Assembly (NCBI RefSeq): GCF_900625105.1
Contig: NZ_UYYD01000003.1
Coordinates: 1 to 64,000 of the forward strand
From: Agathobaculum sp. Marseille-P7918
Lineage (GTDB): Bacteria; Bacillota; Clostridia; Oscillospirales; Butyricicoccaceae
Length of the DNA: 64,000 bases
Reading direction: 5' to 3'
Positions 10,344-27,513 of this stretch are shown piece by piece; position 1 is the stretch's first letter, and each line of letters opens with the position of its first letter. Both the position numbers and the translations under genes were made by a program. Under the pieces are notes generated by a model. That model made no database searches and was not told where the DNA came from. It saw only the letters and a list, made by a program, of their open reading frames with translations.

Positions 10344-10484
10344 GCTGTCCTCGGCCAGAGCACGCTGCGGGGACCGACACAAAGAAAACACAACAAAACT
10401 AAAAATCGGACAACAAATCCTGCGGGATTTGCCAGAAAATTTGCGCGCAAATAGAAAAAGGATAACAAGTGTAAGAATCGTGTA

Positions 10485-10574: not shown

Positions 10575-10626
10575 TCCGGCGGCTTTTCTGATTCGGCAAA
10601 ACGGTTTGAAGGGAAAGGAGTATTTT

Positions 10627-13600
10627 ATGAGACGGAAACGGTTGATCGCCTGGTTGTTGTCCTGCGCGATGCTGCTGACCCTGTTCCCCTTTGCGGGCGC
10701 GGCGGCATATCAGGATACCAAAGGCCATTGGGCGGAGGGTTTGATTGATAAGTGGAGCGGATACGGCGTGATCGAGGGGTATGACGGCGAATTTTCCCCG
10801 GACGATCCGATCATCCGCGGCGATATGGCCGTGATTATCGATCGGCTGCTGGATTATCAGAGCAAAGCGGATAACACATTCTCCGATCTGGGACAGGCTT
10901 ATTACACGGATGCGGTGCTGCGTGCGGCGCAGGCCGGCGTGATGCAGGGCTATGACGGCAAGGTCCGTCCGGAAGAGTACATCACCCGCGAAGAAGCGGT
11001 CTGCATGCTCGCGCGCGCCATGTCGGTGGCGGGCAGCAGCGGCTCGAGCGGGTTTGCCGATGACGCGAGCATCTCTTCCTGGGCGAAGTCGAATGTTGTC
11101 TCCTTCGCACAGAAGGGCTATGTCAACGGCCAGCCGGGCAACCGGTTTGCCCCGCAGGATAACGTGACCCGCGCTGAGGTGGTACAGATCCTGGACAATA
11201 TGATCTCGGATTACATCACCAAGTCCGGTACGGTCACCAAGGTGGGCGACGGTATTGTGATCGTCAAGGCTTCCGGCGTGACGCTGGACGGCGTGGACGT
11301 GAAGGACAATCTGGTGCTGGGCGGCCTGGCCGGCACGGTCATCGCGAAGAACTGCGACCTTTCGGGCAAAACCGTCCGCATCGCGCAGTCCACGCTCAAA
11401 ACCGAGGATACCACGAGCGGCGGCGGTTCCTCGGGCGGTTCTTCTTCCAAGGTTGCGGCGCCGGATGCTTATCCGCTGCCCAAGGGTGAGGAAGACTCCA
11501 AGAGCCTGGGCGTGTTCGATTACGACATGACCTATTATGTGACGCTGACGGCGGAAGACGGCGCGGATATCTATTATGAGATCGCGGAAGGCAAGGACGC
11601 GGCGCCCGAACCGACGACGGACAGCAACAAGTTTGAGACCTATCAGTATAAGCAGATCATGATCGAGCAGCCGACAAGCGACAGCTCGACCGCCGAAGAG
11701 AAAAACCAGACCCGGGAAAAGGTCTACAATGTCAAGGCGATCGCGGTGCGCGGCACCCGCACCAGCGAGGTTGCAAACTGGAACTACACCGTGACCAGCA
11801 ATCCGCGCAGCGAGCTGAAGATCAGCGCGCCGATCGACTGGAACGGCGAAGAAGTGCAGAACGTCACGCTCATTCAGGACTACGACAGCGACAAGATGTA
11901 TCTGGTCGAGGGTTCTGAGCGTGCGATGGTGCTGGACGCAGGTTATTTTGACGCAGATGCTGCGGCGGACCTGTATGGCGCTATGCGTGAGATCGTCGGT
12001 GAGGACAAGCCGATCGATCTGGTGATCGGCCACCCGCATCCCGATCATGTACAGATGGCGTTCCAGTTCCTGTGCGACGAAAACAAGGATTTGGGCGCAA
12101 AGGTTTATGTCAACGAGCGCGGCATCGAGACGCTGCGCGGCTACATCCGCGACAAGGGCATCGCAGCCGGCGTATTCGCGGATGAAGATGAGGCGGACGC
12201 CGCCTATGAAGCACAGCTGGCGACGCTGTCCGACGGCGACGTTTACTCGCTGGGCGATGTATCGTTTGACGTAATTGAGATGCCGGGCCATCAGATCGCC
12301 GGTATCATGCTGTTCGACAAGGCGAGCGGCAACCTGTACACCTCGGATCAGATGGGCAACAACCGCGCGCACCTGACCGACTCGTTCTGGATGCAGTTCG
12401 GTGAAGGCGCGGCCGACCCGATGGATGTTTATCTGTCCACCCTGCAAATCGCGCTGGAAAAGCTGGACGGCAAGGTAAAGCGCATTCTGACCGGTCACAA
12501 CGACGTGGTTCTGGATGGTCAGGGCAGCTATTTTGCCAATCTGGAAGCAGCGGTGCAGCAGGTCGTTGACAAGGGCGAGGACGCGCTGACGCCGACGCTG
12601 CGCACGCTAGACAGCGAACCCTATCTGACCAATACCCGCACTTCGTTTGTGGGCGACCGCCTGACCGATATCAACTGGGCGGGCATCAACCTGAACCTGG
12701 CCAACTTCCTGTCGGAAGCGGGCTACCGGGAAGATCCTTCCTCGATCGCGGAACTGTCCAACCTGTCCGTGCGTCTGCCGGGCGTGTCGGGCAACCTGCT
12801 CTGGGAGGACGAGAATTTCGGCGTCAACCTGAACTGGAAGTACCCGGATGCCACGCAGCCGGTGCGCAAGGATGCGGATGAACTGACCTTCACCGCGACC
12901 GTGGACAGCACGGTTTCGCAGGTGGAAATCGTGCCGACGGCGGCTTCGACCAACGGTACGGTCACCATCAACGGTGAAAAGGCGGTCTCGGGCGAAGCCT
13001 TTACGGCGAAGCTTACCGGAAATGAGACGACCTTTACCGTTGTCGGCACGTCCCCGAACGGCGAGGCGACCAAGACCTATACCGTCAAGGTGGTCAAGGC
13101 GGACGCCGGCAAGGTTGCGGCGCCGTACACCTATACCGATTATGACAACTACACCGATCCGTTCTATCCGGACACTCCGGGCACCTTTACCGTGACCCAG
13201 TATGTGGCGCTGTTCTCGGATACGCCGGGCGCAACCATCCAGTATACGCTGGACGGCAGCGACCCCAAGACCTCGGATACGGCCAAGGAATTTGACCAGA
13301 CCAAGTACAAGGCCTCTTCCGGCACCGGCGGCGCGGAGGTGGATGCGCTCATTACGATCGGCGCGGATACCGGCGACGATTGGGACGGCAGCGCCAAGCA
13401 GACCAAGGTAACGCTCAAGGCGTATGCCAGCAAGGCAGGCATGGAGGACAGCGATGTTGTAACCTTTGAGTATACGATCGACCGCATGTCCAAGAACGAG
13501 CACAAGAGCCGCCTGCTGTATGAGGAAGGCGATATGAAGGTCTGGCAGGTCATCGATTACGACAGCGATAAGATGTACCTGATCAAGGGCGCGGACCGCG

Positions 13601-16530
13601 CGCTGCTGATTGACGCGGGCATGGCGCCCGGCACGGCGGAAAGCCTGTATGAGTACGCCAAGGCACTGGCGGGCACGGCGGAGGTCGATCTCTACATCTC
13701 GCACGGTCACCCCGACCACACGACCCAGATCGGCGACTTCGTCAAAGCGGGCCGCAAGGTTTACATCCATGAAGAAGACATCCAGATGGCGCTGGGCTTC
13801 ATCAACGAAAACGTGGACGCGGATGAGGGCAACAACCTGACGGCGAATATCTTCACCACGATCGATGAAGGCTATCAGTTTGACCTCGGCGGCGTTACGC
13901 TGGACAACTACTATGTGCCCGGCCACACCTCTGGCAGCATGCTGCTGCTCGATAAGGCGCACAACATCCTGTATTCGTCCGACGCAGTGGGCTGCAACCG
14001 CCGCAGCGTGGCGGATTCGCTGACGCTGGCGTCCAACGACGTGCGCGTCCTGCTGTCGAGCGTGCAGGTGTTCAAGGACAAGATGCTGGCACTGGATACG
14101 GCGAATGAAATCGATCTGGACAAGCTCGTCACCTGGACCGGCCATGACGATTACGAGATCGACGATCTGATCGGTCATCTGGATACGGTCATCGAAGCGG
14201 CGCAGAATATCGTCGATTACGGTCCCGATGCTGCGATGCGCAAGTCGGTACGCGACACCGGCGGTTCGGACGGTGCGTCCATTGCGGGCGACCGTTATGC
14301 CAATGACGGCACCGGCCACTTCATCTGCATGAACGGCAAGAAGAGCACCGTGCTGAGCGGCGAGGACTATACCACGGTTGCCGAGCTGGCGAACCTCAAG
14401 GTTACGGCGGCGGGCGGCACCGACAACCTGATGACCGGTTTCAGCACGACCCATGCGTTCGCAGGCACTGCGGTGGGCGACGCCAACGTGCTGGCAGCGG
14501 AAGTGCCGAACGGCACGCAGTCTGTGGACGTTTACCCGACGGCGATGGCAACCAAGGCGACGGTGACGGTGGGCGGCGAGACCGCGGCGCGCGGCGGCAA
14601 GGTAACGGTCACCCTGAATAACGGCTATAAGGAAATCCCGATCGTCGTTACCGCGCCGGACGGCAAGACTACGGCGTCCTATACGCTGACGGTGCGCACT
14701 TGCATCGACCCGATGAATCCGTATGAGACGATGTATGTGGGCGAGCATGTGGAAACCGTCAAGCTCGACAACGGCGAAAGCCGCACGTTTACTTCCTATG
14801 TGCCGGAAGGCGCGCGTGAATCCAACGCGGGCATCTTTGTTCTGCCGGATCAGGGCAAGAACAGCTTTGACGCGTGGAAGACGCTGGCGGACAACACGGA
14901 TACGCAGGCGATCGACGAAAAGTGGACCAAGCAGCAGGAAAAGTTCATCGTCGTCTATCTGGACGGCCTGACCTATGGAGAGAGAGAAGAAGAGAGAGAA
15001 GCAGACATTGATTATGTCAATAAGGTCTATGCAGCGGCGTCCGGACGCACCATGTACTGCATCCACGAAGCCAAGAACTACATGGTAGGCTACGGCGAGG
15101 GCGGTACGATCGCGCAGATGGCGGCAATGGACCAGACTGCTGTCTGGGCCGGGCTGGTAACCGTCGGCGCGGGCGATGTGGACAGCGGCTGGATCGAGGC
15201 CAACGGCCAAGAGATGGCCAGCAGCCTGAATGGGTATAACGACCAGTCGAACAGCACCCGCAAGAGCGAGATTCAGAAGAGCACGCTGCCGCTGCCCGTC
15301 TGGATCATCAACGACGGCACGGAAACCGATGCAGAAACCCTGCAATACTGGCTGGATGCCGATAAGATCGGTGCGGATGAATACACCATCGAGGCTGACA
15401 CGGTAACCAAGTACGTCCGCACCAAGGAGTGGGCGGATAACGCGGGCACCGGCGACTACGAGACCAAATACGGCGACAACCGCGATAAGGAAGCGTACCG
15501 CGTTTGGGTGAGCGGAAAACCGTCCGGCGATCTGGAGAGCACGATCTGGAACGATTTCCTGTTCGGCGTGCGCCGTTGGATGGCCGATCCCGGCGGCGAC
15601 CTGCGCGTGACCAAGGACCCGATCGCGGATCTGGGTATGGATCGCCATTATGAAGAGGTCGGCGGCTGGATGCGCGAGTGGTATGTCTATGTGCCGGATA
15701 GCGTAAACGAAGGCACGCCGGATGTGCCGGTCGTATTCGCAAACCATGGCTATACACTCAACGGCGGCGTGTATGCCGGCCAGACCGACTGGTACAAGGT
15801 AGCGGATGAGAACAACTTCATCGTGGTGTTCCCGTCTGCAATCAACGGCAATATTTCGGACAGCGGCAACGCGCCGTTCCCGGCTTGGAACATTGCGCTT
15901 GACCCGACCCGCATGGATGAGATCGCGTTCTTTAAGTACATGCTGGCGGATCTGGATGCAACCTACGATATCGATCTGGGCCGCGTGTACGCGACCGGCC
16001 ATTCTTGGGGTTCGCAGATGTGCCATGTGCTCGCGCTCAATGAGCCGGAGATGTTCGCAGCGGTGGCGCCGCTGTCGGGATTCATCTTCAAGGACTATGT
16101 GTTTGACCAGGCGGACGATGCGCAGGAAGCCGTATCCGCGGCTGGTGGCGTACCGGTTTACATGGCGGCGGGAACCGAGGGCGGCACGGAATGGAGCATC
16201 TGCCCGGTTCCGCTGACCCAGGCTAACAACTCCGGTCAGACTCTGTCCGCCTGGTTTGCACTCAACGGCTGCGACGGCTCGATTGATTGGGACAAGCTGA
16301 GCGGTTCGAACGAAACGATCGGCAGCTTGGATTGGCAGAGCGGCGGTGCGTTTACAGTGGACGGCCGTTGGTACACCATGACCTGTGAGAAGGACGGTGT
16401 GCCCATGGTGCGGGTGGAAATTGTGGATTATATGCCGCATGCCACCATGCCGGAGCATTCCGACCGCGTGTGGGACAACTGGTTTGCGCATTTCAGCAGA
16501 AATGATGCCGGCCAGCTGCAATACAAATAA
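10627..16530 (+). CDS. Surface-anchored SLH / tandem metallo-beta-lactamase / esterase protein
   Basis: A 1967-residue secreted protein. It has a signal peptide (1-27, ending AGAAA), three SLH domains (about 28-78, 83-134, 141-195) for wall binding and a Gly/Ser linker near 263. The first metallo-beta-lactamase (MBL) domain (about 405-640) has HPHPDH at 469-474, H555 and H624. A cadherin-like block (about 749-828) and a chitobiase-C-like block follow. The second MBL domain (about 955-1190) has HGHPDH at 1026-1031, H1100 and H1173. After another cadherin-like block comes a hydrolase module lacking a nucleophile (about 1360-1600), then a PHB-depolymerase-like esterase (about 1610-1967) with GHSWG (S1793) and H1938. 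The last ~600 residues are paralogous to the cytosolic protein at 25622. The start has AAAGGAG upstream. Substrate unknown; an ester-bearing glycan or glycoside is a guess. Confidence 0.85.
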   Translation: MRRKRLIAWLLSCAMLLTLFPFAGAAAYQDTKGHWAEGLIDKWSGYGVIEGYDGEFSPDDPIIRGDMAVIIDRLLDYQSKADNTFSDLGQAYYTDAVLRAAQAGVMQGYDGKVRPEEYITREEAVCMLARAMSVAGSSGSSGFADDASISSWAKSNVVSFAQKGYVNGQPGNRFAPQDNVTRAEVVQILDNMISDYITKSGTVTKVGDGIVIVKASGVTLDGVDVKDNLVLGGLAGTVIAKNCDLSGKTVRIAQSTLKTEDTTSGGGSSGGSSSKVAAPDAYPLPKGEEDSKSLGVFDYDMTYYVTLTAEDGADIYYEIAEGKDAAPEPTTDSNKFETYQYKQIMIEQPTSDSSTAEEKNQTREKVYNVKAIAVRGTRTSEVANWNYTVTSNPRSELKISAPIDWNGEEVQNVTLIQDYDSDKMYLVEGSERAMVLDAGYFDADAAADLYGAMREIVGEDKPIDLVIGHPHPDHVQMAFQFLCDENKDLGAKVYVNERGIETLRGYIRDKGIAAGVFADEDEADAAYEAQLATLSDGDVYSLGDVSFDVIEMPGHQIAGIMLFDKASGNLYTSDQMGNNRAHLTDSFWMQFGEGAADPMDVYLSTLQIALEKLDGKVKRILTGHNDVVLDGQGSYFANLEAAVQQVVDKGEDALTPTLRTLDSEPYLTNTRTSFVGDRLTDINWAGINLNLANFLSEAGYREDPSSIAELSNLSVRLPGVSGNLLWEDENFGVNLNWKYPDATQPVRKDADELTFTATVDSTVSQVEIVPTAASTNGTVTINGEKAVSGEAFTAKLTGNETTFTVVGTSPNGEATKTYTVKVVKADAGKVAAPYTYTDYDNYTDPFYPDTPGTFTVTQYVALFSDTPGATIQYTLDGSDPKTSDTAKEFDQTKYKASSGTGGAEVDALITIGADTGDDWDGSAKQTKVTLKAYASKAGMEDSDVVTFEYTIDRMSKNEHKSRLLYEEGDMKVWQVIDYDSDKMYLIKGADRALLIDAGMAPGTAESLYEYAKALAGTAEVDLYISHGHPDHTTQIGDFVKAGRKVYIHEEDIQMALGFINENVDADEGNNLTANIFTTIDEGYQFDLGGVTLDNYYVPGHTSGSMLLLDKAHNILYSSDAVGCNRRSVADSLTLASNDVRVLLSSVQVFKDKMLALDTANEIDLDKLVTWTGHDDYEIDDLIGHLDTVIEAAQNIVDYGPDAAMRKSVRDTGGSDGASIAGDRYANDGTGHFICMNGKKSTVLSGEDYTTVAELANLKVTAAGGTDNLMTGFSTTHAFAGTAVGDANVLAAEVPNGTQSVDVYPTAMATKATVTVGGETAARGGKVTVTLNNGYKEIPIVVTAPDGKTTASYTLTVRTCIDPMNPYETMYVGEHVETVKLDNGESRTFTSYVPEGARESNAGIFVLPDQGKNSFDAWKTLADNTDTQAIDEKWTKQQEKFIVVYLDGLTYGEREEEREADIDYVNKVYAAASGRTMYCIHEAKNYMVGYGEGGTIAQMAAMDQTAVWAGLVTVGAGDVDSGWIEANGQEMASSLNGYNDQSNSTRKSEIQKSTLPLPVWIINDGTETDAETLQYWLDADKIGADEYTIEADTVTKYVRTKEWADNAGTGDYETKYGDNRDKEAYRVWVSGKPSGDLESTIWNDFLFGVRRWMADPGGDLRVTKDPIADLGMDRHYEEVGGWMREWYVYVPDSVNEGTPDVPVVFANHGYTLNGGVYAGQTDWYKVADENNFIVVFPSAINGNISDSGNAPFPAWNIALDPTRMDEIAFFKYMLADLDATYDIDLGRVYATGHSWGSQMCHVLALNEPEMFAAVAPLSGFIFKDYVFDQADDAQEAVSAAGGVPVYMAAGTEGGTEWSICPVPLTQANNSGQTLSAWFALNGCDGSIDWDKLSGSNETIGSLDWQSGGAFTVDGRWYTMTCEKDGVPMVRVEIVDYMPHATMPEHSDRVWDNWFAHFSRNDAGQLQYK

Positions 16531-16572
16531 GCAACCCATCCGTTTCGCTTCATAGCCGCAGCGGTGCGGCAG

Positions 16573-16602
16573 GGCGGCTTCCCAAACGGGGAGCCGCCTT
16601 TC
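16573..16602 (+). terminator. Terminator after the surface hydrolase gene
   Basis: The stem GGCGGCTTCCC (16573-16583) / GGGGAGCCGCC (16588-16598) with an AAAC loop is followed by the weak tail TTTCT. It separates the large gene from the two-component operon. Confidence 0.65.
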
Positions 16603-16630
16603 TCCGTATCGGATGGATAAGACGGCAGAC

Positions 16631-16654
16631 AAAACGCGTGCTCGATGCTATAAT
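16631..16654 (+). promoter_or_regulatory. Promoter of the two-component/SBP operon
   Basis: An extended -10 box, TGCTATAAT (TATAAT at 16649-16654), with a weak -35 (CAGACA near 16626). It lies 29 bases ahead of the TTG start of the kinase gene. Confidence 0.6.
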
Positions 16655-16683
16655 AGGATCAGAAATGGCGGGGAGATGAGGAT

Positions 16684-18483
16684 TTGAGAAGGAAAAATAA
16701 GGGAAAAACCTTCAAACAGCAGCTGTTTTTGTATTTCATCCTCTCGTCCGTGTTCATTTGCCTGGTGATGGGGCTGTTCCTGTATGTATCCGAGCAGGAA
16801 CTGGTCACCGACAACTTACAGCAGGAAACCCAGACCGCCATGGGATATGCCGTGGATCAGGCGGAGCAAACCGCGCTGCGTGTGGAGGAGTTTGCCAATC
16901 AGGTTTGCCGCAGCGACGCGGTGATCGATGTGATGCAGCGCACCTCGCCGCAGGTGGATGCACAGGTGCTTTCCATTGCCGCGGAACTCAATGAGCAGTT
17001 CCAGTTCGTCACGATCACCGAGGAAGTGCTGTCGCTGCTGCTGGTGGGGGAAAACGGGCTGGATCTGCGCTGCGGCAAAGAAGCGTCGCTGGTGGATGAC
17101 GCAGCGATCAGGCAGGCGTTCTGCCGGGCGGACTATTACGGCGACAGCTTGATGCGCTGGGGGGTCTCGCAGAAAAATTTCTGCAAGCTGAGCGATTATC
17201 CCACCGTGGTGCCGTACAGCCGGCGCATCACGGATACTGCCTCCGGACAGACACTGGGCTATCTGGTGCTGCTGCTGCGGGACACCGCGCTCATCGACGC
17301 CTGCAAGCCGTTTCTCGAACAGGGGGATGAAGCGTTCTGCCTGATGGATGAAACCGGCGGGATGATCGTACAAAATGCGCGGTGGCGCGAGCTGACCGAA
17401 CAATATGGCGGCGAAGGCACGATTTTCGACAGCGGAACGCAGGAATTTGCCGAAACTGTGCGGCTGGGCGGCGTGCAGTTCCGCTTTTTCCAGACACCGG
17501 TGCCGTCGTACCCGTGGCAGCTGGTGGAAGCGGTGCCGATGTACCAATATGCGCAGCAGACCCGGATTTTGGGGCGGGCTGCTGTGGTTGCGGCCTGCAT
17601 GGCGCTGGTGCTGTCGCTGATGCTGGCAACCGTGTTTTCCGGGCAGCTGGTGCGGCCGATCGAGCGTATGGTGGAGGCTGTGCAGGATATTGCGCGCGGC
17701 AACTTCTCGCGCCGGCTGGAACGCAGCAACCGCGTGGAGCTGAATACCTTGCAGGACAGCATCGAAAAGATGCAGACCGACCTCAAACAGCTGCTCGACA
17801 GCCGTGTGGCGCAGGAGCAGGAGAAAAAGACCGCGGAGATCCAGATGCTCAAAGCGCAGATCAACCCGCATTTCCTGTATAACACGCTCAATTCGATCAA
17901 GATGATGGCGGTGATGCAGGGTGCGCGCGGCATCCAGAACATGATCGAGGCGCTGGGCAGCATCCTGCGGGCCAGCCTGAGCAATGCGGAGGAGCGCACC
18001 ACGCTGCGGGATGAGCTGGCGCTGCTGGAACAGTACATTTATATTCAGAATATCCGCTATAAGGGCAATATCGAGTACGAAACCGTGGTGCGGGATCAAA
18101 GCCTGCTGGATTTTCCCATGCAGCGCTGCTTGCTGCAGCCGCTGCTGGAAAATGCGATCACGCATGGCATCGAGCAGGACAACCGCGGCGGACATATCAC
18201 GCTGATCGTGTGGCGCAAGTGGGAAAGCCTGTATATTTCGGTGGAGGATGACGGCGTCGGCATCCCGCCCGAGCGTCTTGCACGGCTGCAAAACGGCGAG
18301 CGGCTGACCAGCCGCAGCATCGGCGTGTATAACGTCGATCAGCGTCTGCGCATGACCTATGGCGAAGCATACGGTCTGCGCTTTGAAAGCAAGCCCGGGG
18401 AATTTACCCGGGTCATTGCACGCATGAAAATCACAGAGGGGGATTTTGCCCATGAAGAAAACGCGGATACTGATCGTCGATGA
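16684..18483 (+). CDS. YesM-type sensor histidine kinase
   Basis: A 599-residue membrane kinase. It has a TM helix near 12-35, an extracellular sensing region (about 36-295), a second TM near 297-320, HAMP (about 322-375), a His_kinase domain with phosphorylated H396 in INPHFLYN, and a C-terminal HATPase with N-box LLENAITHG. It starts with TTG at 16684, which has GGGGAG 8 bases upstream and fits the KR-rich N-terminus; no in-frame ATG is nearby. It overlaps the response-regulator gene by 32 bases and shares its operon with a solute-binding lipoprotein. YesM kinases typically control carbohydrate genes. Confidence 0.92.
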   Translation: MRRKNKGKTFKQQLFLYFILSSVFICLVMGLFLYVSEQELVTDNLQQETQTAMGYAVDQAEQTALRVEEFANQVCRSDAVIDVMQRTSPQVDAQVLSIAAELNEQFQFVTITEEVLSLLLVGENGLDLRCGKEASLVDDAAIRQAFCRADYYGDSLMRWGVSQKNFCKLSDYPTVVPYSRRITDTASGQTLGYLVLLLRDTALIDACKPFLEQGDEAFCLMDETGGMIVQNARWRELTEQYGGEGTIFDSGTQEFAETVRLGGVQFRFFQTPVPSYPWQLVEAVPMYQYAQQTRILGRAAVVAACMALVLSLMLATVFSGQLVRPIERMVEAVQDIARGNFSRRLERSNRVELNTLQDSIEKMQTDLKQLLDSRVAQEQEKKTAEIQMLKAQINPHFLYNTLNSIKMMAVMQGARGIQNMIEALGSILRASLSNAEERTTLRDELALLEQYIYIQNIRYKGNIEYETVVRDQSLLDFPMQRCLLQPLLENAITHGIEQDNRGGHITLIVWRKWESLYISVEDDGVGIPPERLARLQNGERLTSRSIGVYNVDQRLRMTYGEAYGLRFESKPGEFTRVIARMKITEGDFAHEENADTDRR

Positions 18484-20056
18484 CGATACCATGGTGCGGA
18501 TCGGCCTGAAAACCGTCATCAACTGGGAGGAAAACGGGTTTCTGCTGGTGGGCGAGGCGCAGGACGGACAGCAGGCGCTGGAGCTGGCGGAACGTTACCA
18601 GCCGGATATCATCATCACGGACATCAAAATGCCGCGCATGGACGGCCTTGCGCTGATCGAACGGCTGCGGGAGCAGAAAAATCCGGCGGATATTCTGGTG
18701 CTGAGCAGTTATGATGAGTTTGAACTGGTCAAAAAAGCGCTCAAACTGGGCGCAAAGGACTATATCCTCAAGCTCAATCTGGAACCGGAGGAGCTGCTGC
18801 ACTGCCTGCGCACGATGGTCGCCGCGCAGACCGACCGGCCGGCCGCTGCCGACGTCGCGCCGGAAAGCGAGAAAAGCCGCGCGCTGCTGCGGCAGAATTT
18901 CCTGTGGGATGTGGTTTCCGGGTTTTATCTGAGCGAGGAAAAGTTGGAACAGACCATGCGGCATCTGGAGATCCATCTGGATACCCGGCCGATCTACTGC
19001 ATGATCCTGAAAGCGGGGGAGACCTACCGCTTTGAGGACGCGCCGCCCGAGCAGCTGCAAACGCTGCGCTTTTCCGTCATCAATATCACGGACGAGATTG
19101 TCAACGACGTGGCAAACGGGTATTGCTTTTCCGGCCGCACCGGGGAATTTGACGTGCTGCTGGCCGGGGTGGAAGATCATGCTGCGCTCACCAAGCTGGC
19201 GCAGCGGCTGCGGCGCATGCTGATGGATTATCTCAATCTGTCCTGCACGGTTTTGATCGGCAGCAGCCGGCAGCCCGGCAGCGCGGGTATTCAGGAAGCC
19301 TTCCGGCAGGCCAACGCGCTGGTTTCGCGGCGGTTCTTTCTGGACCATGACGGCGTGCTGTTCTGGGATGGCGCCATGGAGGAGCACAGCGAGGACTCTT
19401 ACAGCCTGTCCGGGGTGCGCGCGGAATTGTCCGACATTCTGGTGTCCGGCAGTACGCAGTCGCTGGCGCGCGTGCTGGATCGGATCGCGGAGGACATGCG
19501 GCGCCTTTCGCTGAGTCGTTCGACGATCTGCGGCATTGCGCTGGAGCTTTTCTATGTCGTGCAGGAGTATTTTGAGAAAAACGCGCTGCCGACCAGACGG
19601 CTGCTGCCGCAGAGTTACCGGACCTATGAACAGTTTGTGCATATGGAAAGCCTGCGCGACGTGATCGACTGGATCGAGCTGCTGCGGCAGGATCTGACCG
19701 CGTTTTTTGAGCGGGAGAGCGAAAAAGGCTATCCCAAGGTGATCCGGGCGGTGCAGGATTGGATCGCGGCGCACTATCGTGAAAACGCGTCCCTGCAGGA
19801 GGCGGCGGCCGCGGTCGGCTTTAACCCGTCGTATCTGAGTACGCTGCTGAAAAAGTATACGGGAAAAAGCTATACCGAATCGCTCGCGGAATACCGGATC
19901 GAACAGGCCAAACAGCTGCTGCTGCTGACCAATGAAAAGGTATATGCCGTTGGGCAAATGGTGGGATACGAGGATAAGTATTATTTCAACCGCATTTTCA
20001 AGCGGGTGACCGGCATGAGCCCGGGGGAGTTCAAAAACCAGAACCGGAAGGAGTGA
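18452..20056 (+). CDS. YesN-type response regulator, receiver plus AraC HTH
   Basis: A 534-residue response regulator. The receiver domain (about 1-125) has DDD near the N-terminus, phospho-acceptor D57 in TDIKMPRMDG and K at KDYILK. A long middle region (about 130-420) of the type found in YesN proteins follows, then a C-terminal AraC HTH (about 435-534) with the signature around GYEDKYYFNRIFKRVTG. I chose the ATG at 18452 with AGAGGGGG upstream; a TTG two codons earlier is also open. It is translationally coupled to the kinase and 6 bases from the SBP gene. Confidence 0.92.
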   Translation: MKKTRILIVDDDTMVRIGLKTVINWEENGFLLVGEAQDGQQALELAERYQPDIIITDIKMPRMDGLALIERLREQKNPADILVLSSYDEFELVKKALKLGAKDYILKLNLEPEELLHCLRTMVAAQTDRPAAADVAPESEKSRALLRQNFLWDVVSGFYLSEEKLEQTMRHLEIHLDTRPIYCMILKAGETYRFEDAPPEQLQTLRFSVINITDEIVNDVANGYCFSGRTGEFDVLLAGVEDHAALTKLAQRLRRMLMDYLNLSCTVLIGSSRQPGSAGIQEAFRQANALVSRRFFLDHDGVLFWDGAMEEHSEDSYSLSGVRAELSDILVSGSTQSLARVLDRIAEDMRRLSLSRSTICGIALELFYVVQEYFEKNALPTRRLLPQSYRTYEQFVHMESLRDVIDWIELLRQDLTAFFERESEKGYPKVIRAVQDWIAAHYRENASLQEAAAAVGFNPSYLSTLLKKYTGKSYTESLAEYRIEQAKQLLLLTNEKVYAVGQMVGYEDKYYFNRIFKRVTGMSPGEFKNQNRKE

Positions 20057-20062
20057 GCGCGG

Positions 20063-21322
20063 ATGGGAACGCGGCGTGTGACGGCGCTGTGTATGGCGGT
20101 GGTCTGCATGCTGCTGACCGCCTGTACCGCGGGCGCGCCGGCACAGGGAGAGCAGACCAAGCAGACGCTGACTCTGGTGCTGTGGGATTATGATAAGACC
20201 AGCTACGATCGCCGGCTGGTGGAGGCGTTTGAACAGACGCATCCGGATGTGGAGATCCAGGTGGTCAGCTATCCGGATACCTATTACGATCAGAAAATGG
20301 AGGCTTTTCTGCTGGGAGACAAAAGCGTGGATGTCTTTTTGTCGCGCACCACGGCGTCGCTCAAGCGCATGTGCGAGCATGGCGTGGTGCAGGAACTGGA
20401 CGAAATGGTTGAGCAATACGGTTTAGATCTGGCGGATTCTCCGCAGCTGACGGGAATGCGGTATGATGGGAAGCTGTACGGCGTGCCCTATCGGAAGGAC
20501 CGGTATGTGCTGTTTTACAACTGCGATTTGTTTGATGCCGCCGGCGTGCCATACCCGCAGGAGCGTCTGACCTGGCCGCAGCTGTATGAATTGGCGAAAA
20601 AGCTGCAAAGCGGGCTGCGGCAGAATGGGCAGTATGCGCTGATGGTGCTGCCGATGGATATCCAGTGGATCGCTTCGGGCGGGGTATGGCCGATGCGGTA
20701 CGACGCAGATGAGGCTGCTGGTCGGATCGTACCGATCATGCAGCTGCTGCTGCAAATGCAGCAGGATGGCGCAGCGCCCCGGTATGCGGACTGTATTGCA
20801 AAGGATGTGGCACAGCAGAGCTTTGAGCTGGGCGAGTATGCGATGTATGTTGGCGGAAGCTGGTATGTCAATTACCTGACGACCGATCAGAAAAACGACA
20901 AATTTGATTTCCGGTGGGGCGTGATGGAATGTCCCTATTGGCCGCAGAGCGAGCTGGACGAGGAACCGAGCATCCCGACCGGGATGAGCATTTGCCGGAA
21001 CAGCGAGAACAAGACGCTGGCGTGGGAGTTCATTCAGTTTGCGTCGGGAAAAGAAGGGGCGTCGATCATGGCGGAGGAACAGATGCAGCCGGCGTATCAG
21101 GATGACGCGGTCAAGCAATGCTATTTGGACCATTTCGCAGGCGTTTTTCTGGATGAAGCGATTTTGCAGGCGACGGAAAAGCCAAAGCAGGATTTGACCA
21201 ATGATGTGCAGGAGCAGCAGGGAATCCTTTGCGACGCGTTCCGCAAGTGCATGACGGGCCAGATGACGGTTGAGCAAGCTGAGCAATATGCATCGGCGGC
21301 GCTTCGGTCGGTTTCAGCGTAA
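20063..21322 (+). CDS. Extracellular solute-binding lipoprotein, sugar type
   Basis: A 419-residue SBP_bac_1-family protein with a lipoprotein signal peptide: lipobox LLTAC with the acylated Cys at 21. The mature part begins LTLVLWDYDKTSYDRRLVEAFEQ, as in ABC sugar-binding proteins, and ends with the usual WEFIQF region. No permease or ATPase genes accompany it. It is the third gene of a kinase/regulator/SBP operon closed by a terminator, so I infer that it presents ligand to the YesM kinase, or that it serves a transporter encoded elsewhere. Confidence 0.88.
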   Translation: MGTRRVTALCMAVVCMLLTACTAGAPAQGEQTKQTLTLVLWDYDKTSYDRRLVEAFEQTHPDVEIQVVSYPDTYYDQKMEAFLLGDKSVDVFLSRTTASLKRMCEHGVVQELDEMVEQYGLDLADSPQLTGMRYDGKLYGVPYRKDRYVLFYNCDLFDAAGVPYPQERLTWPQLYELAKKLQSGLRQNGQYALMVLPMDIQWIASGGVWPMRYDADEAAGRIVPIMQLLLQMQQDGAAPRYADCIAKDVAQQSFELGEYAMYVGGSWYVNYLTTDQKNDKFDFRWGVMECPYWPQSELDEEPSIPTGMSICRNSENKTLAWEFIQFASGKEGASIMAEEQMQPAYQDDAVKQCYLDHFAGVFLDEAILQATEKPKQDLTNDVQEQQGILCDAFRKCMTGQMTVEQAEQYASAALRSVSA

Positions 21323-21390
21323 GGCGCCGTCCGGCGGCAAAGCGGGAAACGGATGGGAAAAGCGGATCTGTCAATGCTATACATAAGAGA

Positions 21391-21419
21391 AGCCCTCTGG
21401 AAGCAGAGGGCTCTTTTTG
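21391..21419 (+). terminator. Terminator of the two-component/SBP operon
   Basis: The stem AGCCCTCTG (21391-21399) / CAGAGGGCT (21404-21412) has a GAAG loop and the tail CTTTTTG. Confidence 0.92.
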
Positions 21420-21463
21420 CGCCAGACGGCGCGCTGTGAAGAGGCAACCTCTACTATTTTGGA

Positions 21464-21492
21464 TTGCTGCGGGCAAAAATGTCTGTTATGAT
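21464..21492 (+). promoter_or_regulatory. Promoter of the AraC-GH39 gene
   Basis: An extended -10 box, TGTTATGAT (TATGAT at 21487-21492), with TTGCTG (21464-21469) 17 bases upstream, 32 bases ahead of the start codon. Confidence 0.6.
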
Positions 21493-21524
21493 AAAACAAA
21501 CTGCTGAAAAAAGAGGGATCAGGC

Positions 21525-23975
21525 ATGGACCGCGAAGCCGTTGTCACATTTCGGGTATATCATAACGAGGAAACGCCGATCAGCATGTCGCCCGGCCTGC
21601 TGTTGTTTTTCGGCCTGCACGGGAGCAGCACGCTGCATACCGTGCAAGGCCGCTTTGCGCTGCCCGAAAACGCGGTATATATTGCGTCCCCGCTGACGCT
21701 GTTCCGCGTCTGCTGCCGGGACGGCGCGGCGCTGCTGTCGATGATGATCGCGCCGGAGATCCTGCGCCGGGCGGGCTGGGAAGAAACCACGGCGGCGGAT
21801 TGCTTTCTGCCGGCGGAAAAGGCGAGCGACGCCTCGCACAATGCCATCCGGCAGGGCATGGCGGCGCTGTTCCGCAGCCTGTTCCGCGAGGAAAACCGCT
21901 TATCGGAAACCGCTGCGCGGGCGGAAACACTGGTTTCCAACATCTGCCGGGACTTTGCCGCCGCCGATGTGCAGCATGCCTCGGCCAGCGCGGAACCCAT
22001 GGCGCGGATCGAGCAGATCCTGCGCTTTGTGCAGACCCACTGGGCGGAGCCGATCACGCTGGCGCAGCTGGCGGCCGAGCAGTTTTTGTCCGAAAGCTAT
22101 CTGTCCCGCCTGTTTCACAAGTGCCTGGATATGACGTTCACGGACTATCTCGTGTCCGTGCGGCTCGAGCATGCGGAGGCGGATCTGCGCAAATCCGGCC
22201 GTTCCATCACGCAGATCGCGTATCAGAACGGTTTCAAGAGCACGAATGCGTTTATCGAGTATTTTAAACGTCGGTACGGGGTCACACCGGGCAAATACCG
22301 TAAAACCGTGCAGGAAAAACAGCAGGCGGCTGGGCAGACGTCGCCGGGCGACCTGTCCGACTGGATGCAGGTGCTGCTGCAATACGATGAGGACGCCGCG
22401 GCGGGGGAACGGACCGAGCGGATCGCCAAAACGGTTTCGGTTTCGGCGGATGTCTCCGGCGAGGGACGGCCGATGCGGCATCCGTGGCGCCGCCTGATGA
22501 ATATCGGCTATGCGCGCGACGGCTTGATCGGCACGGTGCAGGAGCAGATCAAGCGCGCCAAGCGCGAGATCGGGTTTACCGATCTGCGGTTCCACGGCAT
22601 TTTTGATGATGACATGCATATCTATCAGCAGAACGAGGACGGTTCCCCTTGGTATAACTTCACCTATGCCGACCTGCTGTTTGATTTTATCCTCTCGGTC
22701 GGCCTGCATCCGTATGTGGAACTGGGGTTTGTGCCCTCCAAGATGGCGAAGGTACAGTACCGCCTGTTCGAGCGCTGCTCAATGGCCGGCACCTATGCGA
22801 GCCGGGAAAAATGGGAGGCGCTGGTGCAGGCGGCGGTTGCGCACTGGATCGAACGCTACGGGTTGGAGGAAGTGCTTCAGTGGCGGTTCACCATTCTGTC
22901 GTTCAATTACTCGCAGCTGCCCGAGATCCCGATGGACTACGCGGACTATGTGGAGATGTACTGCACGACCTGGCACATCCTCAAGGAGCTGGACCCGGGG
23001 CTGCGTTTGGGCGGTCCGGGCAGCTTCCCGAGCATTTCGCTGGCACAGGACGGCGGAGAGCGGCTGCTGCGGGATCTGACCGCCTGCGGCTGTCCGCCGG
23101 ATTTCCTGTCCGTGCAGATGTATCCGCATGAGAACATTGAGCAGGACGCAGAATTCCTGCGTTTTACCGCCAATCAGCAGTCCGCACCCTCGGTTTTGAG
23201 CAAGGATGAGGACTTCGCCCGGCACTTTTTGCAGTCCTTCCGGCGCTTGGCGGCTGCATGCGGCTTGCAGGATCGGGAGATTGTGGTCGAGGAATGGAGC
23301 TCGACACTGTGGCAGCGCGATCTGTCGAGCGATACCTGCTACAAAGCGGCGTGGCTGACCAAGAACGCGCTGGAAAACAGCGACGGCGCGGATATGCTGG
23401 GCTATTGGCTGCTGACCGATTTTATCGACGAATGGCTGGTGCCGGGCGGTGTGTTCCACGGCGGCTACGGCCTGTTCACGGCAAACGGCATCCCCAAGGC
23501 GGGTTATCAGGCGCTGCGGCTGCTGACCCGCGTCGGCGAGCGGGAGATTGCCCGCGGAAAGGGTTGGCTCATCTCCAAAAGCCGCAACGAGATCCGGATT
23601 TTCCTGTATCATTACTGCCATTATGACGCGCTGTACCGCTACCGCTACCAAAAGCTGATCGACCCGAACGACGCCTACAAGGTGTTCCGGCAGGAGGGGG
23701 ATCTGCATCTTTCGCTGACCTTAACCGGGCTGCACCCGGGCGGCTACCGGCAGGAGCGGCGGCGCATCAGCCGGAAGGCGGGCTCGGCCTACGACAAATG
23801 GCTGGAGATCGGCGCGCCCGCCAAGATCGGGCCGGACGACCTGCGCTATCTGAGCGAAACCTCGCAGCCGTCCTTTACGGTCTGTGAAAGCGACACGAAC
23901 GGGCATTTGGTTCTGGAAGCGGAACTCGGCCCGCATGAGGTGGAGATGATCGTGCTGCAAAGACGGGATTGCTGA
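21525..23975 (+). CDS. AraC-family regulator fused to a GH39-like domain
   Basis: An 816-residue protein. An N-terminal cupin-like effector region (about 1-150) is followed by an AraC HTH (about 160-265: LAQLAAEQFLSESYLSRLFHK, then ITQIAYQNGFKSTNAFIEYFKRRYGVTP). A long GH39-like TIM-barrel and beta-sandwich part runs from about 320 to 816. The nucleophile region resembles GH39 at VVEEWSS (E589/E590). The usual acid/base Asn-Glu-Pro motif after the WRF strand is absent: W453 is followed by RFTILSFNYSQ. The domain may therefore bind an oligosaccharide as a sensor rather than cleave it. There is no signal peptide, so it is cytoplasmic. It precedes the GPH symporter and hydrolase genes, its likely targets. 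Confidence 0.85.
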   Translation: MDREAVVTFRVYHNEETPISMSPGLLLFFGLHGSSTLHTVQGRFALPENAVYIASPLTLFRVCCRDGAALLSMMIAPEILRRAGWEETTAADCFLPAEKASDASHNAIRQGMAALFRSLFREENRLSETAARAETLVSNICRDFAAADVQHASASAEPMARIEQILRFVQTHWAEPITLAQLAAEQFLSESYLSRLFHKCLDMTFTDYLVSVRLEHAEADLRKSGRSITQIAYQNGFKSTNAFIEYFKRRYGVTPGKYRKTVQEKQQAAGQTSPGDLSDWMQVLLQYDEDAAAGERTERIAKTVSVSADVSGEGRPMRHPWRRLMNIGYARDGLIGTVQEQIKRAKREIGFTDLRFHGIFDDDMHIYQQNEDGSPWYNFTYADLLFDFILSVGLHPYVELGFVPSKMAKVQYRLFERCSMAGTYASREKWEALVQAAVAHWIERYGLEEVLQWRFTILSFNYSQLPEIPMDYADYVEMYCTTWHILKELDPGLRLGGPGSFPSISLAQDGGERLLRDLTACGCPPDFLSVQMYPHENIEQDAEFLRFTANQQSAPSVLSKDEDFARHFLQSFRRLAAACGLQDREIVVEEWSSTLWQRDLSSDTCYKAAWLTKNALENSDGADMLGYWLLTDFIDEWLVPGGVFHGGYGLFTANGIPKAGYQALRLLTRVGEREIARGKGWLISKSRNEIRIFLYHYCHYDALYRYRYQKLIDPNDAYKVFRQEGDLHLSLTLTGLHPGGYRQERRRISRKAGSAYDKWLEIGAPAKIGPDDLRYLSETSQPSFTVCESDTNGHLVLEAELGPHEVEMIVLQRRDC

Positions 23976-24082
23976 AATGCCGGATACAGAAAATATATAA
24001 ATTTTGACCTTGCTTTCCCGGTTTGTTGCCATATGTGGACCGGCAAAAATTAGAAATTTGAAAAAATGCGCAAAATGCAGAA

Positions 24083-24114
24083 ATGCGAAATACGGTATTT
24101 CTGTATTTTCGCAT
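24083..24114 (+). promoter_or_regulatory. Inverted repeat upstream of the symporter gene
   Basis: The 231-base gap before the GPH transporter gene holds ATGCGAAATAC (24083-24093) facing GTATTTTCGCAT (24103-24114), an imperfect 11-12-bp inverted repeat. A TACACT -10-like box lies at 24127-24132. It could be an operator or the target of the AraC-GH39 protein. The rest of the gap is AT-rich with nothing recognisable. Confidence 0.4.
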
Positions 24115-24206
24115 GCGAAAAACCGGTACACTAAAAGCAGAAAGAGGGAACCCATTCCTGCGCAGGTCCGTGGCCCCCAACAAAAAACGGAAAAGGGGAG
24201 AAACAT

Positions 24207-25604
24207 ATGGCAACAGCAAAGCAAGGCGTACACAATCCCGTGGACGAAGCCAATGTAAGAACCAGTATTTTCGAGAAAATCTCCTACGGCATGGGCGATG
24301 TGGCCTGTAACGTGGTATTTGCACTGACCAGCGGTCTGGTTACCTATTTTTACACCAATGTCATGAGCGTTTCGGCGGCTATGGTCGGTATGATCATGCT
24401 GTTTTCCCGCATTTTTGACGGCCTGTCCGATGTCATGATCGGTTTGATTATGGACAAGGTGCATTCCAAGCACGGCCGCGGCCGCGCGTGGGTGCTTTGG
24501 ATGGCGATTCCGTACGGTGCGACGGCGGTGGCGCTGTTCTGCCTGCCGGCCAACGCGACAACGGCGGTGCAGGCGATCTACATCTTCATCACCTATAACC
24601 TGTGTACCACCGTGGTTTATACGGCACTCAACCTGCCGTACGGCGCGATGGCGCCGCTGATGACGCGAAACGAGCAGGATCTTGCCAAGATCAACCTGTT
24701 CCGCATGGCGATGAGCCCGATCGGCAACATGATCGTTTCGGCGGCAACCCTGCCGATCATCAACCGTATGGGCGGCGATCAGGCGGCGTGGATCAAGGTC
24801 ACGCTCATCTATTCCGTGGTGGCCATTTTGCTGCTGCTCTGGTGCTTCTTCGGCACCAAGGAGCGCGTGCGCACGCAGGCCGCGCAGGAAGCGGAAAAAC
24901 TGCCGGTCGGTGTTCGCTTCGGTGCGCTCATCCACAATAAGTATTTCCTCCTGATTCTGATTTCGGCGCTGTTCCTTGCGGTATACCAGACGGTCAACGG
25001 CACTTGCGCCACCTATTATGCACAGTATATTCTGGGCAACAACGAGTATTACAGCGTGCTTAACCTGGCGGAAAACATCCCGCAGGTCATTGTCATCATG
25101 TTCCTTGCGCCGTTCATCAAAAAGTTCGGCAAGCGCAATCTGGTGCTCTGGGGCGCGGTGCTCACGGCGGTGGCGCAGCTCCTGCTGCTGCTGGTTCCGG
25201 CCAACCCGACGTTCGCGGCCGTGATCGCGGCCATCCGCGGCATCGGCAAGGCGCCGCTGTTCGGCTGCATCTTCACGATGATGGCGGACGTGGTTAACTA
25301 CGGCCACTGGAAAACCGGCGTGCGTGTGCAGGCGCTCATCTTCAGCGCGGCAACGGTCGGTCAGAAGTTCGGCGGCGGCATTGCCGGCGCGGTGATCGGC
25401 TGGTTGATGGACGCTTCGGGCTTCACCGGCCTGGAGCAGGAGATCCCGTCTGCGGTCGCGATGGTCGAAAACCTGTATATCTGGGGCACCGTGATCGCGT
25501 GGGCCGTGATCATTCTGCTGATGCTGGCATACAAGCTGGATAAGCAGTATGACGGCATGATCGCCGATATGGAGCACAAAGGCATGCTCAAGCAGGCAGA
25601 ATAA
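24207..25604 (+). CDS. GPH-family sugar:cation symporter (MFS)
   Basis: A 465-residue membrane protein with 12 predicted TM segments, related to MelB, XynP and YicJ. It shows the N-terminal YGMGDVACNVVF, DGLSDVMIGLIMDKVHSKHGRGR (the D-x3-G-x3-D loop) and the mid-protein ADVVNYGHWKTG signature. GPH carriers import glycosides, pentosides or hexuronides with Na+ or H+. An AAAGGGG site precedes the ATG. The hydrolase gene begins 17 bases after its stop, so the pair is an operon in which the imported compound is probably the hydrolase substrate. Confidence 0.92.
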   Translation: MATAKQGVHNPVDEANVRTSIFEKISYGMGDVACNVVFALTSGLVTYFYTNVMSVSAAMVGMIMLFSRIFDGLSDVMIGLIMDKVHSKHGRGRAWVLWMAIPYGATAVALFCLPANATTAVQAIYIFITYNLCTTVVYTALNLPYGAMAPLMTRNEQDLAKINLFRMAMSPIGNMIVSAATLPIINRMGGDQAAWIKVTLIYSVVAILLLLWCFFGTKERVRTQAAQEAEKLPVGVRFGALIHNKYFLLILISALFLAVYQTVNGTCATYYAQYILGNNEYYSVLNLAENIPQVIVIMFLAPFIKKFGKRNLVLWGAVLTAVAQLLLLLVPANPTFAAVIAAIRGIGKAPLFGCIFTMMADVVNYGHWKTGVRVQALIFSAATVGQKFGGGIAGAVIGWLMDASGFTGLEQEIPSAVAMVENLYIWGTVIAWAVIILLMLAYKLDKQYDGMIADMEHKGMLKQAE

Positions 25605-25621
25605 AAGGGAAGGAATCGTAC

Positions 25622-27433
25622 ATGTATCAGAATTATCATTACCAAATCGATCTGCGGGACCCGTTCAAACCCCTGTATCAGGGCACGTTTGAGCAGACGG
25701 TGACGGTCGGCGGCAAAACGCGGCGGTATCTGGTGTATATTCCGGAGGGGGCGCGCCCCTCGACGGCCGGCGTGTTCATCCTGCCGGAAGACGGCAAAAC
25801 GGTGGACGATCTGTGGCGCGACAGCTGGTGGCGCATGATCGCGGACACGGAAGAGACCAAGGAAAAGCTGATCGTGTTTTTCCTCGAGCCGGAGAATGGG
25901 AAATGGCAGATCGATGAGCCGTATGGCAAGCCGGACGGCGATGTGGCGTATATCGACGCGGTTTATCTGGCGGGCACGCAGCGCTTTCGGTTCTGCGTGC
26001 ATGAATCCAAGTTTTATCTGACCGGATGCCGTGAAGGCGGTGTGCTGGCCAACATGGCGGCGATGTACAACCCCGCCGTGTGGGCTGGCGTGGTCAGCGT
26101 GGGCGGTTCGGCGGTGGCGGAAGCTTACCGCAAGGCGGCGGCAGACGATTTCTGCACCAATCTGGACGGCTTTGTGGACGAAACCCACCGTCTGGGCCTC
26201 AAAAAGGGCGAAATCCCCGTACCGGCGTGGATCATTGACGATCCTGCCGCGCCGCGCGGCACGGACAACGGTACGGCAGCGTACTGGCGCACGGCCTGCG
26301 GCATCACGGAGGCGGGGCATCAGACCGCGCCGGATGTGGTGGAATATATCCGCACGGAGCAGCCGCCCTACGCGCCCAATCAGGAAAAACAGGCCTTCCG
26401 CGTCTGCACGAGCACGATTCCGGATGCGTCCGCGGATTATGCCAATCCGCTGCTGCGCCGGATCTGGAAGGGGTTCCTGTACCGGCAGCGCCGCTGGATG
26501 AGCGGCCCGGGCGGCGACCTGCGCGTGACGCGAGATCCGGTGGTCGATCTCGGTATGGAATACCACTATGAAGAGATCGGCGGCTGGATGCGCGAATGGT
26601 ATGTCTATGTGCCGGAACAGGTCAAGGCGCAGCCGGAAAAAGCGGTGCCGCTGGTGTTTGCCATGCATGGCTACACCTGCGCGGGCGAGATCTACGCGGG
26701 CAATTCCGAGTGGTACAAGGTCGCGGACCGCTATGGCTTTATCGTCGTGCATCCGTCGGCAACGCCGGGACAGATGCTGATGGCCAATCAGGCGTGCGAC
26801 CCGGATAATGTGCCGCTTCCGGCGTGGAATTTCATGCACAATGCGCCGGATGGGCCGGATGAACTGCAATTTTTCCGCACAATCCTGGAAAAGACCTGCG
26901 CGGCGCATGCGATCGACCGTAGCCGCGTCTATGCGACCGGACATTCGCACGGTTCGGTGATGACGCAGGTGTTGGCCATGGCGATGACCGATGTGTTCGC
27001 CGCAGCGGCGCCGTGTTCGGGCATTCTGTTCCAGATGTCGGATATGAACATCCGCGCGCTGCCGGAAATCGTTGGCCGCAAGGATGCGCAGATCCCGATC
27101 TGGATGTTCGGCGGCGAGCAGGAGCCTTGGCTGCTGCCGGCAGTCCCGACGGCGGACAACGAGACCGGCGACAGCCTGCGGATCTGGCGCGGCATCAACC
27201 ATATGACGCCCGAGATGCCGGACGATTTCTCGACCGGGTGGACGGTGCACGGCCGCTGGCATGATCTGACCTACCGCCGCGACGACGGCGCGCCGATGGT
27301 GAACTTCACTTGGGTGGATTACATGCCGCATGCGACCATGACCGAGATGTCCTTCCGCATCTGGGAGGAGTTCTTCTCCAAATTCTCGCGTGTGGACGGC
27401 GAAGTGCGGTATCAGCCGGACACAAACGGCTGA
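25622..27433 (+). CDS. Cytosolic two-module alpha/beta hydrolase (PHB-depolymerase-like esterase)
   Basis: A 603-residue protein without a signal peptide. The first module (about 1-270) is a degenerate alpha/beta hydrolase: at the nucleophile elbow it reads LTGCREGG where GxSxG would be expected. The second module (about 300-603) is esterase-like, with HGYTCAGE as oxyanion-side region, GHSHG with S442, and H570 in DYMPHAT. It aligns along its whole length with the last ~600 residues of the surface protein at 10627, sharing PGGDLRVT, DLGM, GGWMREWYVYVP and WTVHGRWHDLT-like blocks. It is co-transcribed with the GPH symporter. I infer an intracellular ester or glycoside-ester hydrolase. Confidence 0.85.
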   Translation: MYQNYHYQIDLRDPFKPLYQGTFEQTVTVGGKTRRYLVYIPEGARPSTAGVFILPEDGKTVDDLWRDSWWRMIADTEETKEKLIVFFLEPENGKWQIDEPYGKPDGDVAYIDAVYLAGTQRFRFCVHESKFYLTGCREGGVLANMAAMYNPAVWAGVVSVGGSAVAEAYRKAAADDFCTNLDGFVDETHRLGLKKGEIPVPAWIIDDPAAPRGTDNGTAAYWRTACGITEAGHQTAPDVVEYIRTEQPPYAPNQEKQAFRVCTSTIPDASADYANPLLRRIWKGFLYRQRRWMSGPGGDLRVTRDPVVDLGMEYHYEEIGGWMREWYVYVPEQVKAQPEKAVPLVFAMHGYTCAGEIYAGNSEWYKVADRYGFIVVHPSATPGQMLMANQACDPDNVPLPAWNFMHNAPDGPDELQFFRTILEKTCAAHAIDRSRVYATGHSHGSVMTQVLAMAMTDVFAAAAPCSGILFQMSDMNIRALPEIVGRKDAQIPIWMFGGEQEPWLLPAVPTADNETGDSLRIWRGINHMTPEMPDDFSTGWTVHGRWHDLTYRRDDGAPMVNFTWVDYMPHATMTEMSFRIWEEFFSKFSRVDGEVRYQPDTNG

Positions 27434-27481
27434 CGGGGCAGGCCGGACGCAAAACAGCGCGCCTGCAATCGGACAAAAGAA

Positions 27482-27513
27482 AAGCACGGATTCAGCTGAA
27501 TCCGTGCTTTTTT
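27482..27513. terminator. Bidirectional terminator between the hydrolase and LacI genes
   Basis: A perfect 14-bp inverted repeat, AAGCACGGATTCAG (27482-27495) / CTGAATCCGTGCTT (27496-27509), with T-rich flanks on both strands. It serves the two convergent genes. Confidence 0.9.

Follow-up and report, generated by a model that had tools for sequence, protein, structure and literature searches.

Surface-anchored and cytosolic forms of a tandem esterase in Agathobaculum, with a putative part in two-stage hydrolysis of an ester-bearing compound

We analyzed a window of 64,000 nt from the genome of Agathobaculum sp. Marseille-P7918 (2.83 Mb, 36 contigs), in which two consecutive gene sets each contain a tandem esterase. 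The surface unit is headed by a protein with S-layer homology (SLH) repeats, whereas the cytosolic unit combines an AraC-type regulator, a GPH-family symporter and an esterase apparently devoid of a signal peptide. A first-pass annotation of the same DNA had delimited both esterase genes and had placed between them a two-component system, a binding protein and an AraC-GH39 regulator. All of them were recovered, followed by the symporter gene, along with further features that map as follows.

10485–10513, plus strand: promoter-like TTTACG-17-TATAAT before the SLH gene (pattern only)
10627–16530, plus strand: surface multi-hydrolase, 1967 aa (Pfam matches, motif positions)
11434–12861, plus strand: first metallo-beta-lactamase (MBL)-fold region of this protein (alignments A3/A8, metal ligands conserved)
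12862–14436, plus strand: Cadherin-like, CHB_HEX and second MBL-fold region (Pfam matches, comparison with relatives)
14704–15585, plus strand: catalytically decayed N module of the surface esterase, with GYGEGG at residue 1488
15586–16527, plus strand: C module of that esterase (GHSWGS with Ser1793, PHAT with His1938)
16684–18483, plus strand: histidine kinase with HAMP, His_kinase and HATPase domains (Pfam, synteny)
18446–20056, plus strand: response regulator with AraC-type helix-turn-helix (HTH) (Pfam, synteny)
20063–21322, plus strand: extracellular solute-binding protein, no adjoining ABC permease genes (Pfam, synteny)
21391–21412, plus strand: terminator-like hairpin dividing the surface unit from the AraC-GH39 gene (pattern only)
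21525–23975, plus strand: AraC regulator with a fused GH39-like domain that lacks the acid/base Glu and presumably acts as a sensor (Pfam, PDB match, alignment)
24072–24109, no strand assigned: imperfect inverted pair AAAATGCAGAAA ... TTTCTGTATTTT before the GPH gene, candidate AraC-GH39 operator (pattern, locus alignment)
24207–25604, plus strand: GPH-family cation symporter (TIGR00792, 313.4 versus a cut-off of 231.35)
25622–27433, plus strand: cytosolic tandem esterase of 603 aa, with GCREGG at 135 in the decayed N module and GHSHGS (Ser442) and His570 in the C module
27480–27511, minus strand: hairpin of 14 pairs downstream of the esterase gene, terminator-like on this strand (pattern only)

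BLASTP aligned residues 1360–1967 of the surface protein with residues 9–598 of the cytosolic one over 641 columns at 39% identity (407 bits, E 2e-129 in this single comparison). The blocks PGGDLRVT, DLGM, GGWMREWYVYVP and DYMPHAT, from which a common two-module architecture had been proposed, are all present in this end-to-end alignment. Judged from these scores, the similarity is far beyond chance, and a whole-genome search at E 0.001 returned these two esterases as the only family members. Both are tandem alpha/beta-hydrolases with a decayed first module and an esterase-like second one that keeps Ser and His. The N module, compared by profiles and by weak sequence matches (9j07, E 0.0028), has no Ser at the nucleophile position in 25/25 sequences. 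In the C module, GHSxGS and PHAT are invariant in all 19 sequences of alignment A1, and alignment A2 retains Ser and His within variable flanking residues. The C-module fold matches acetylxylan and feruloyl esterases over ~250 residues at 18–22% identity (PDB 8daj, 9j07, 5x6s, 8iy8). The cytosolic protein scored above the cut-offs of two models for type 1 extracellular scl-PHA depolymerase / polyhydroxybutyrate (PHB) esterase, NF050058 (159.5 versus 150) and PF10503 (44.1 versus 23), and below that of TIGR01840, the PHB depolymerase family esterase model (94.7 versus 107.85), whereas the surface protein stayed under both of the former (NF050058, 104.7 versus 150; PF10503, 20.7 versus 23).

In a 25-row tree the surface fusion formed a single clade (100/100) and the cytosolic group a weaker one (76/70); long branches meet between the fusion and a secreted type described below, leaving the deep order unsure. 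A recent duplication of the esterase pair was rejected on the grounds that the fusion is a clade of its own. On this tree the two proteins are old paralogues, and the first-pass description of the cytosolic esterase as a copy was an overstatement.

Genomes and loci compared are labelled G and L, respectively, and the sets comprise 87 genomes of the family, an order sample of 394 and a class sample of 391, with the window's own genome counted in each. Matches to the cytosolic esterase occurred at E 0.001 in 20/87 family genomes, some of them weak (G003, G027, G065), and at E 1e-30 in 13/394 and 2/391 genomes of the order and class samples; the named records that contain relatives bear the labels Agathobaculum, Butyricicoccus, Oscillibacter, Eubacterium, Lachnospiraceae and similar. 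One esterase from a genome labelled as another genus (L031, G040:C113) shares 88% identity with the window's and is nested in the tree among those of the window's genus, by either transfer or misbinning of this metagenome-assembled genome (65% complete). At another locus (L070:8136-11779) two consecutive cytosolic tandem esterases, 46% and 49% identical to the window's, lie among ribose-type transport, Gfo and isomerase-like genes. Downstream of the window's own esterase, positions 28816–31025 encode a xylose-isomerase-like TIM-barrel protein and an orphan ribose-type binding protein, homologues of which also occur near family members in L040, L037/L038 and L088.

Signal peptides were judged by eye throughout. 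The surface protein starts with ATG at 10627 and has a signal-peptide-like N-terminus, MRRKRLIAWLLSCAMLLTLFPFAGAAA, followed by three SLH stretches (94.7 bits), the combination expected of an S-layer anchor. The cytosolic esterase begins MYQNYHYQ, with no visible signal peptide. These traits agree with the proposal that one esterase architecture exists here in two forms, exported and cytosolic. Beyond the SLH repeats, the surface protein runs through MBL-fold domain 1, a Cadherin-like domain, CHB_HEX/Fn3-assoc, MBL-fold domain 2 and a second Cadherin-like domain to the tandem esterase. The two MBL-fold domains, like the loss of catalytic residues from the first esterase module, are additions to the first-pass annotation. 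Their motifs are HPHPDH at residue 469 and HGHPDH at residue 1026; the metal ligands HxHxDH, His, Asp and His were invariant in 11/11 aligned sequences, and PF00753 matched with 83.6 bits against a cut-off of 22.7, which places the region in the superfamily. With the MBL alignment as profile, a search of the PDB returned a single match at E 1e-8, the hydroxyacylglutathione hydrolase 2xf4, and a structure model (mean pLDDT, predicted local distance difference test, of 71.5) was interpreted within residues ~209–452. MBL-part matches occurred in 4/391 genomes at E 1e-35 and in 4/394 at E 1e-40, own genome counted. Upstream, the stretch with the promoter-like element is similar in L044 and L047 and unlike in L045; promoter-pattern matches in this region number 5, fewer than in shuffles (mean 8.5). 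Among relatives, the one in G002 (L088:7098-10820) is interrupted, lacks the esterase part and adjoins genes for a ribose-type binding protein, a Gfo/Idh oxidoreductase and a TIM-barrel protein. Two proteins from another family of the class (L097:1467-3581, L098:192-2309) combine SLH, CHB_HEX and a single MBL domain with no esterase, one of them next to a Gfo/Idh oxidoreductase.

Homologues of the kinase, response regulator and binding protein follow the SLH fusion in G007, G023 and G024, although the G007 fusion has one MBL domain, not two, and its regulator and binding-protein frames look interrupted. A secreted type that carries SLH C-terminally forms a separate branch in the tree, and homologues of the same three genes (28–39% identical) precede it immediately, in that order, in 4/6 loci (L048, L110, L111, L112; no C-terminal SLH match was found in L112). 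In the other two, L049 showed none of the three before the secreted esterase, and in L035 (G054) the preceding genes are instead GPH and a cytosolic esterase. Since the trio lies before the secreted type in these four loci and after the SLH fusion, kinase, regulator and binding protein appear to accompany the secreted esterase whatever the layout. In G035, surface esterase and surface MBL are separate lipoproteins (lipobox), and this genome also holds both GPH-linked cytosolic relatives.

On the cytosolic side, 17 bases separate the GPH and esterase genes; GPH has two further homologues in the genome, and AraC-GH39 has no second match at E 1e-20. The GH39-like domain scored 180.2 bits against 26 for PF01229 and was nearest to beta-xylosidases (PDB 1px8, E 2.3e-47). 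The column of the acid/base Glu holds no Glu in 20/20 aligned AraC-GH39 proteins, the NEP of 1px8 reading NYS in the window protein. Because it lacks this residue and is nearest to beta-xylosidases, the domain is probably a sensor for a xyloside-like sugar. The best NCBIfam match of this protein was staphylococcal AryK (NF047455), which likewise has an AraC HTH followed by a GH39-like domain; however, at 130.6 bits against a cut-off of 850 it is not AryK, and the partner genes differ. In the candidate operator, TTTNTGTAT is conserved before GPH in 7/7 aligned loci. Matches to TTTCTGTATTTT in the whole window number 19, above shuffles (mean 2.28), and the sole exact one lies before GPH.

We examined the neighborhoods of 26 cytosolic-type esterases, one of them a 61-residue stub lying at a contig end, and found AraC-GH39 in 19. 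A GPH homologue likewise occurred in 19, with two distant ones (33% identity to the window's) among them. The AraC-GH39 count was 21/26 by script and fell to 19 on removal of L070 and L072, where matches of 99 and 126 residues cover the HTH only; the upstream sequence of L062 (921 bases) and L068 (34 bases) is too short to judge its presence. Duplicate contigs of G-labelled loci (L051-L053, L055, L056, L058-L061, L066, L067, L069, L071, L075-L078) were omitted, and L079 is a fragment. Conversely, of the nine other GPH homologues in the 87 family genomes that reach 60% identity or more, 8 adjoin the esterase, so that the pairing of GPH and cytosolic esterase noted in the first-pass annotation is supported as a conserved unit; the ninth, in G024, adjoins a DUF5054 protein. 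In L100:2909-11198, a GPH 76% identical to the window's adjoins a DUF5054 protein near LicT and phosphotransferase system genes, which share 78% and 87% identity with their counterparts directly upstream of the SLH gene in the window; judged by these neighbors, this site seems to exchange neighboring units.

The hydrolase beside AraC-GH39 and GPH also varies. Of 22 AraC-GH39 matches in the family, 12 adjoin a cytosolic tandem esterase, which in one case is truncated by the contig end, and 4 of the remaining 10 lie with a GPH homologue and another ester-hydrolase family. In L090:3264-8617, GPH, a CHB_HEX+MBL protein without signal peptide and AraC-GH39 stand in a row with carboxylesterase B nearby, and this locus is, by its gene content, a parallel unit with a different hydrolase. 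The other three carry a serine beta-lactamase-like protein (L102), an alpha/beta hydrolase (L103) and carboxylesterase B (L108). In five loci (L104-L107, L109) no such hydrolase was seen in neighborhoods that were incompletely scanned, L109 starting at a contig end, and the G005 locus was not included in this reading. The CHB_HEX+MBL part, with the layout of the surface protein's second MBL-fold region, recurs without visible signal peptide at 31–34% identity in L090 and, next to a tandem esterase and ribose-type ABC genes, in L089. This variety of ester hydrolases at GPH/AraC-GH39 loci is a main reason to regard ester cleavage as the purpose of the units.

Each component resembles a known system. 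With feruloyl and acetylxylan esterases and type 1 PHB depolymerases (CE1-like; PF10503, NF050058) the C module has fold, Ser elbow and His in common, but here it stands in tandem with a decayed N module, is cytosolic or SLH-anchored together with MBL domains, and may use Glu as its acid residue; only the cytosolic protein exceeds the cut-offs of these two models. GPH-type sugar utilization units generally combine a GPH symporter, an AraC regulator and a cytosolic hydrolase. The present unit conserves these three, but its hydrolase is esterase-like rather than a glycosidase and varies in type by locus, and its regulator bears a dead GH39-like domain. The MBL domains share HxHxDH, the downstream His/Asp/His ligands and the fold with their superfamily (PF00753; glyoxalase II, class B lactamases), but are fused to CHB_HEX/Fn3-assoc, SLH and a tandem esterase and score below the NCBIfam cut-offs of named subfamilies.

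We propose that both units serve one pathway for two-stage ester hydrolysis of a small ester-bearing glycoside or related compound, a reading to which we give a probability of about 0.5. The S-layer-anchored protein would trim the compound outside the cell at as many as three hydrolytic sites, one belonging to a serine esterase and two to di-metal MBL-fold domains; substrate or product would be sensed by the two-component system together with the orphan binding protein. The GPH symporter would then import the trimmed, still acylated compound, which AraC-GH39 would sense via its dead beta-xylosidase-like domain, turning on GPH and the cytosolic esterase for cleavage of the remaining ester. In both esterases the second module alone would be catalytic, the first serving as scaffold or binding module.

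The first-pass annotation had likewise envisaged a two-compartment system, and the test that it named, co-occurrence of the two genes in related genomes, supports it in part. In G054 (L035:8096-16533) AraC-GH39, GPH and the cytosolic esterase lie in one direction with a secreted SLH-tagged esterase, the two esterases 35 bases apart. In Fisher tables of hand-typed sets, with p values uncorrected for kinship, the cytosolic unit accompanied any surface form (including the secreted type with C-terminal SLH) in 5/9 genomes versus 6/78 without one (p 0.0012), and the SLH fusion including the split G035 genes in 3/5 versus 8/82 (p 0.013); the 52 good-quality genomes alone gave 2/3 versus 5/49 (p 0.044). 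With the intact fusion only, however, co-occurrence was not significant (2/4 versus 9/83, p 0.076). The cytosolic unit as scored takes in G004 (TRAP, no GPH), G022 (distant GPH) and G055 (esterase cut at a contig end) and the surface form takes in G035, whereas two genomes were scored as neither: G002, in which the surface gene is broken and its esterase part missing, and G030, which has cytosolic esterases but neither AraC-GH39 nor GPH with them.

The result for the intact fusion belongs with a set of observations that weigh against a single pathway, several of which would be accounted for by two independent neighboring systems, the surface unit scavenging one compound for its own kinase and GPH/esterase handling another, with the esterases as old paralogues of a family expanded in Butyricicoccaceae. 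The units are separable: the surface unit occurs without the cytosolic one in G023 (99% complete) and G024 (whose GPH homologue is the one beside the DUF5054 protein), six genomes have the cytosolic unit without any surface form, G017, G022 and G037 have the cytosolic unit by itself, and in G007 the two lie on different contigs, AraC-GH39 being preceded there by a low-molecular-weight phosphatase-like gene (named by eye) rather than by the binding-protein gene. In the window a terminator-like hairpin separates them, and an operator common to both was rejected, as TTTCTGTATTTT was not found with up to two mismatches in 10273–10626, upstream of the SLH gene. The separate clade of the fusion also favors independence, as do cytosolic relatives with TRAP or ribose-type ABC genes, which suggest that substrates may vary. 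The G035 surface genes (L046, L091) show no kinase, regulator or binding protein on their short stretches. As to chemistry, the stretch near GGEQ-EPW suggests that the C-module acid may be Glu rather than Asp, the surface MBL scores under every NCBIfam cut-off listed, and an active glycosidase was not identified in the unit, the sole GH43 of the genome being barely above its cut-off (32.8 versus 32.2 bits). Independence is nevertheless at odds with the G054 run, with the 5/9 versus 6/78 co-occurrence and with the recurrence of MBL and tandem esterase together in the cytosol (L089) and of MBL with GPH/AraC-GH39 (L090), and we regard it as unlikely, though a serious contender.

We find it improbable that the substrate is an acetylated or feruloylated xylo-oligosaccharide from xylan debris, handled by CE1-like esterases, a pentoside transporter and a xylosidase-like sensor. 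The C-module fold and the beta-xylosidase affinity of the GH39-like domain point that way, and GPH members move pentosides. However, no xylanase or xylosidase was seen in the unit and the genome offers that one marginal GH43 (GH10, GH11, GH3, GH120 and others were not searched), and we know of no part for two MBL domains in xylan breakdown. Detoxification or drug inactivation, for example by surface MBL domains hydrolyzing beta-lactam-like or lactone compounds, deserves very little credence: the class B beta-lactamase core model NF012229 gave 66.5 against a cut-off of 100, fold similarity by itself shows no function, and the neighboring importers and sugar-type regulators suggest use, not defense.

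Joint action of both units on an ester-bearing compound thus stays our preferred reading. More tentatively, the loci might represent an undescribed class of catabolic unit in gut Clostridia. Its core would be a dead-GH39 AraC sensor and GPH, joined in the cytosol by one of several interchangeable ester hydrolases (tandem CE1-like, MBL, serine beta-lactamase-like, carboxylesterase B). Secreted versions of these hydrolases, served by a kinase, a regulator and a binding protein of their own, would mirror it outside the cell, and the target would be an ester-bearing compound that no gut enzyme has so far been linked to. The parts are of known kinds, and a two-compartment ester-hydrolyzing system built from them is partly supported. 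Among the open-access papers listed, neither titles nor opening lines of abstracts name the pairing; preprints and most subscription papers fall outside this scope and term matches were often unrelated, so that this is weak evidence of absence.

The decayed first module, retained in all 25 members examined, is a separate puzzle. If the two units act together, they would provide a concrete handle on the use of ester-decorated compounds by some butyrate-type gut Clostridia. In that case they would also yield a search rule, namely dead-GH39 AraC with GPH and ester hydrolase on the one hand, and kinase, regulator and binding protein with secreted tandem esterase on the other, that would find more such enzymes, and the sensor domains would lead to the substrate.

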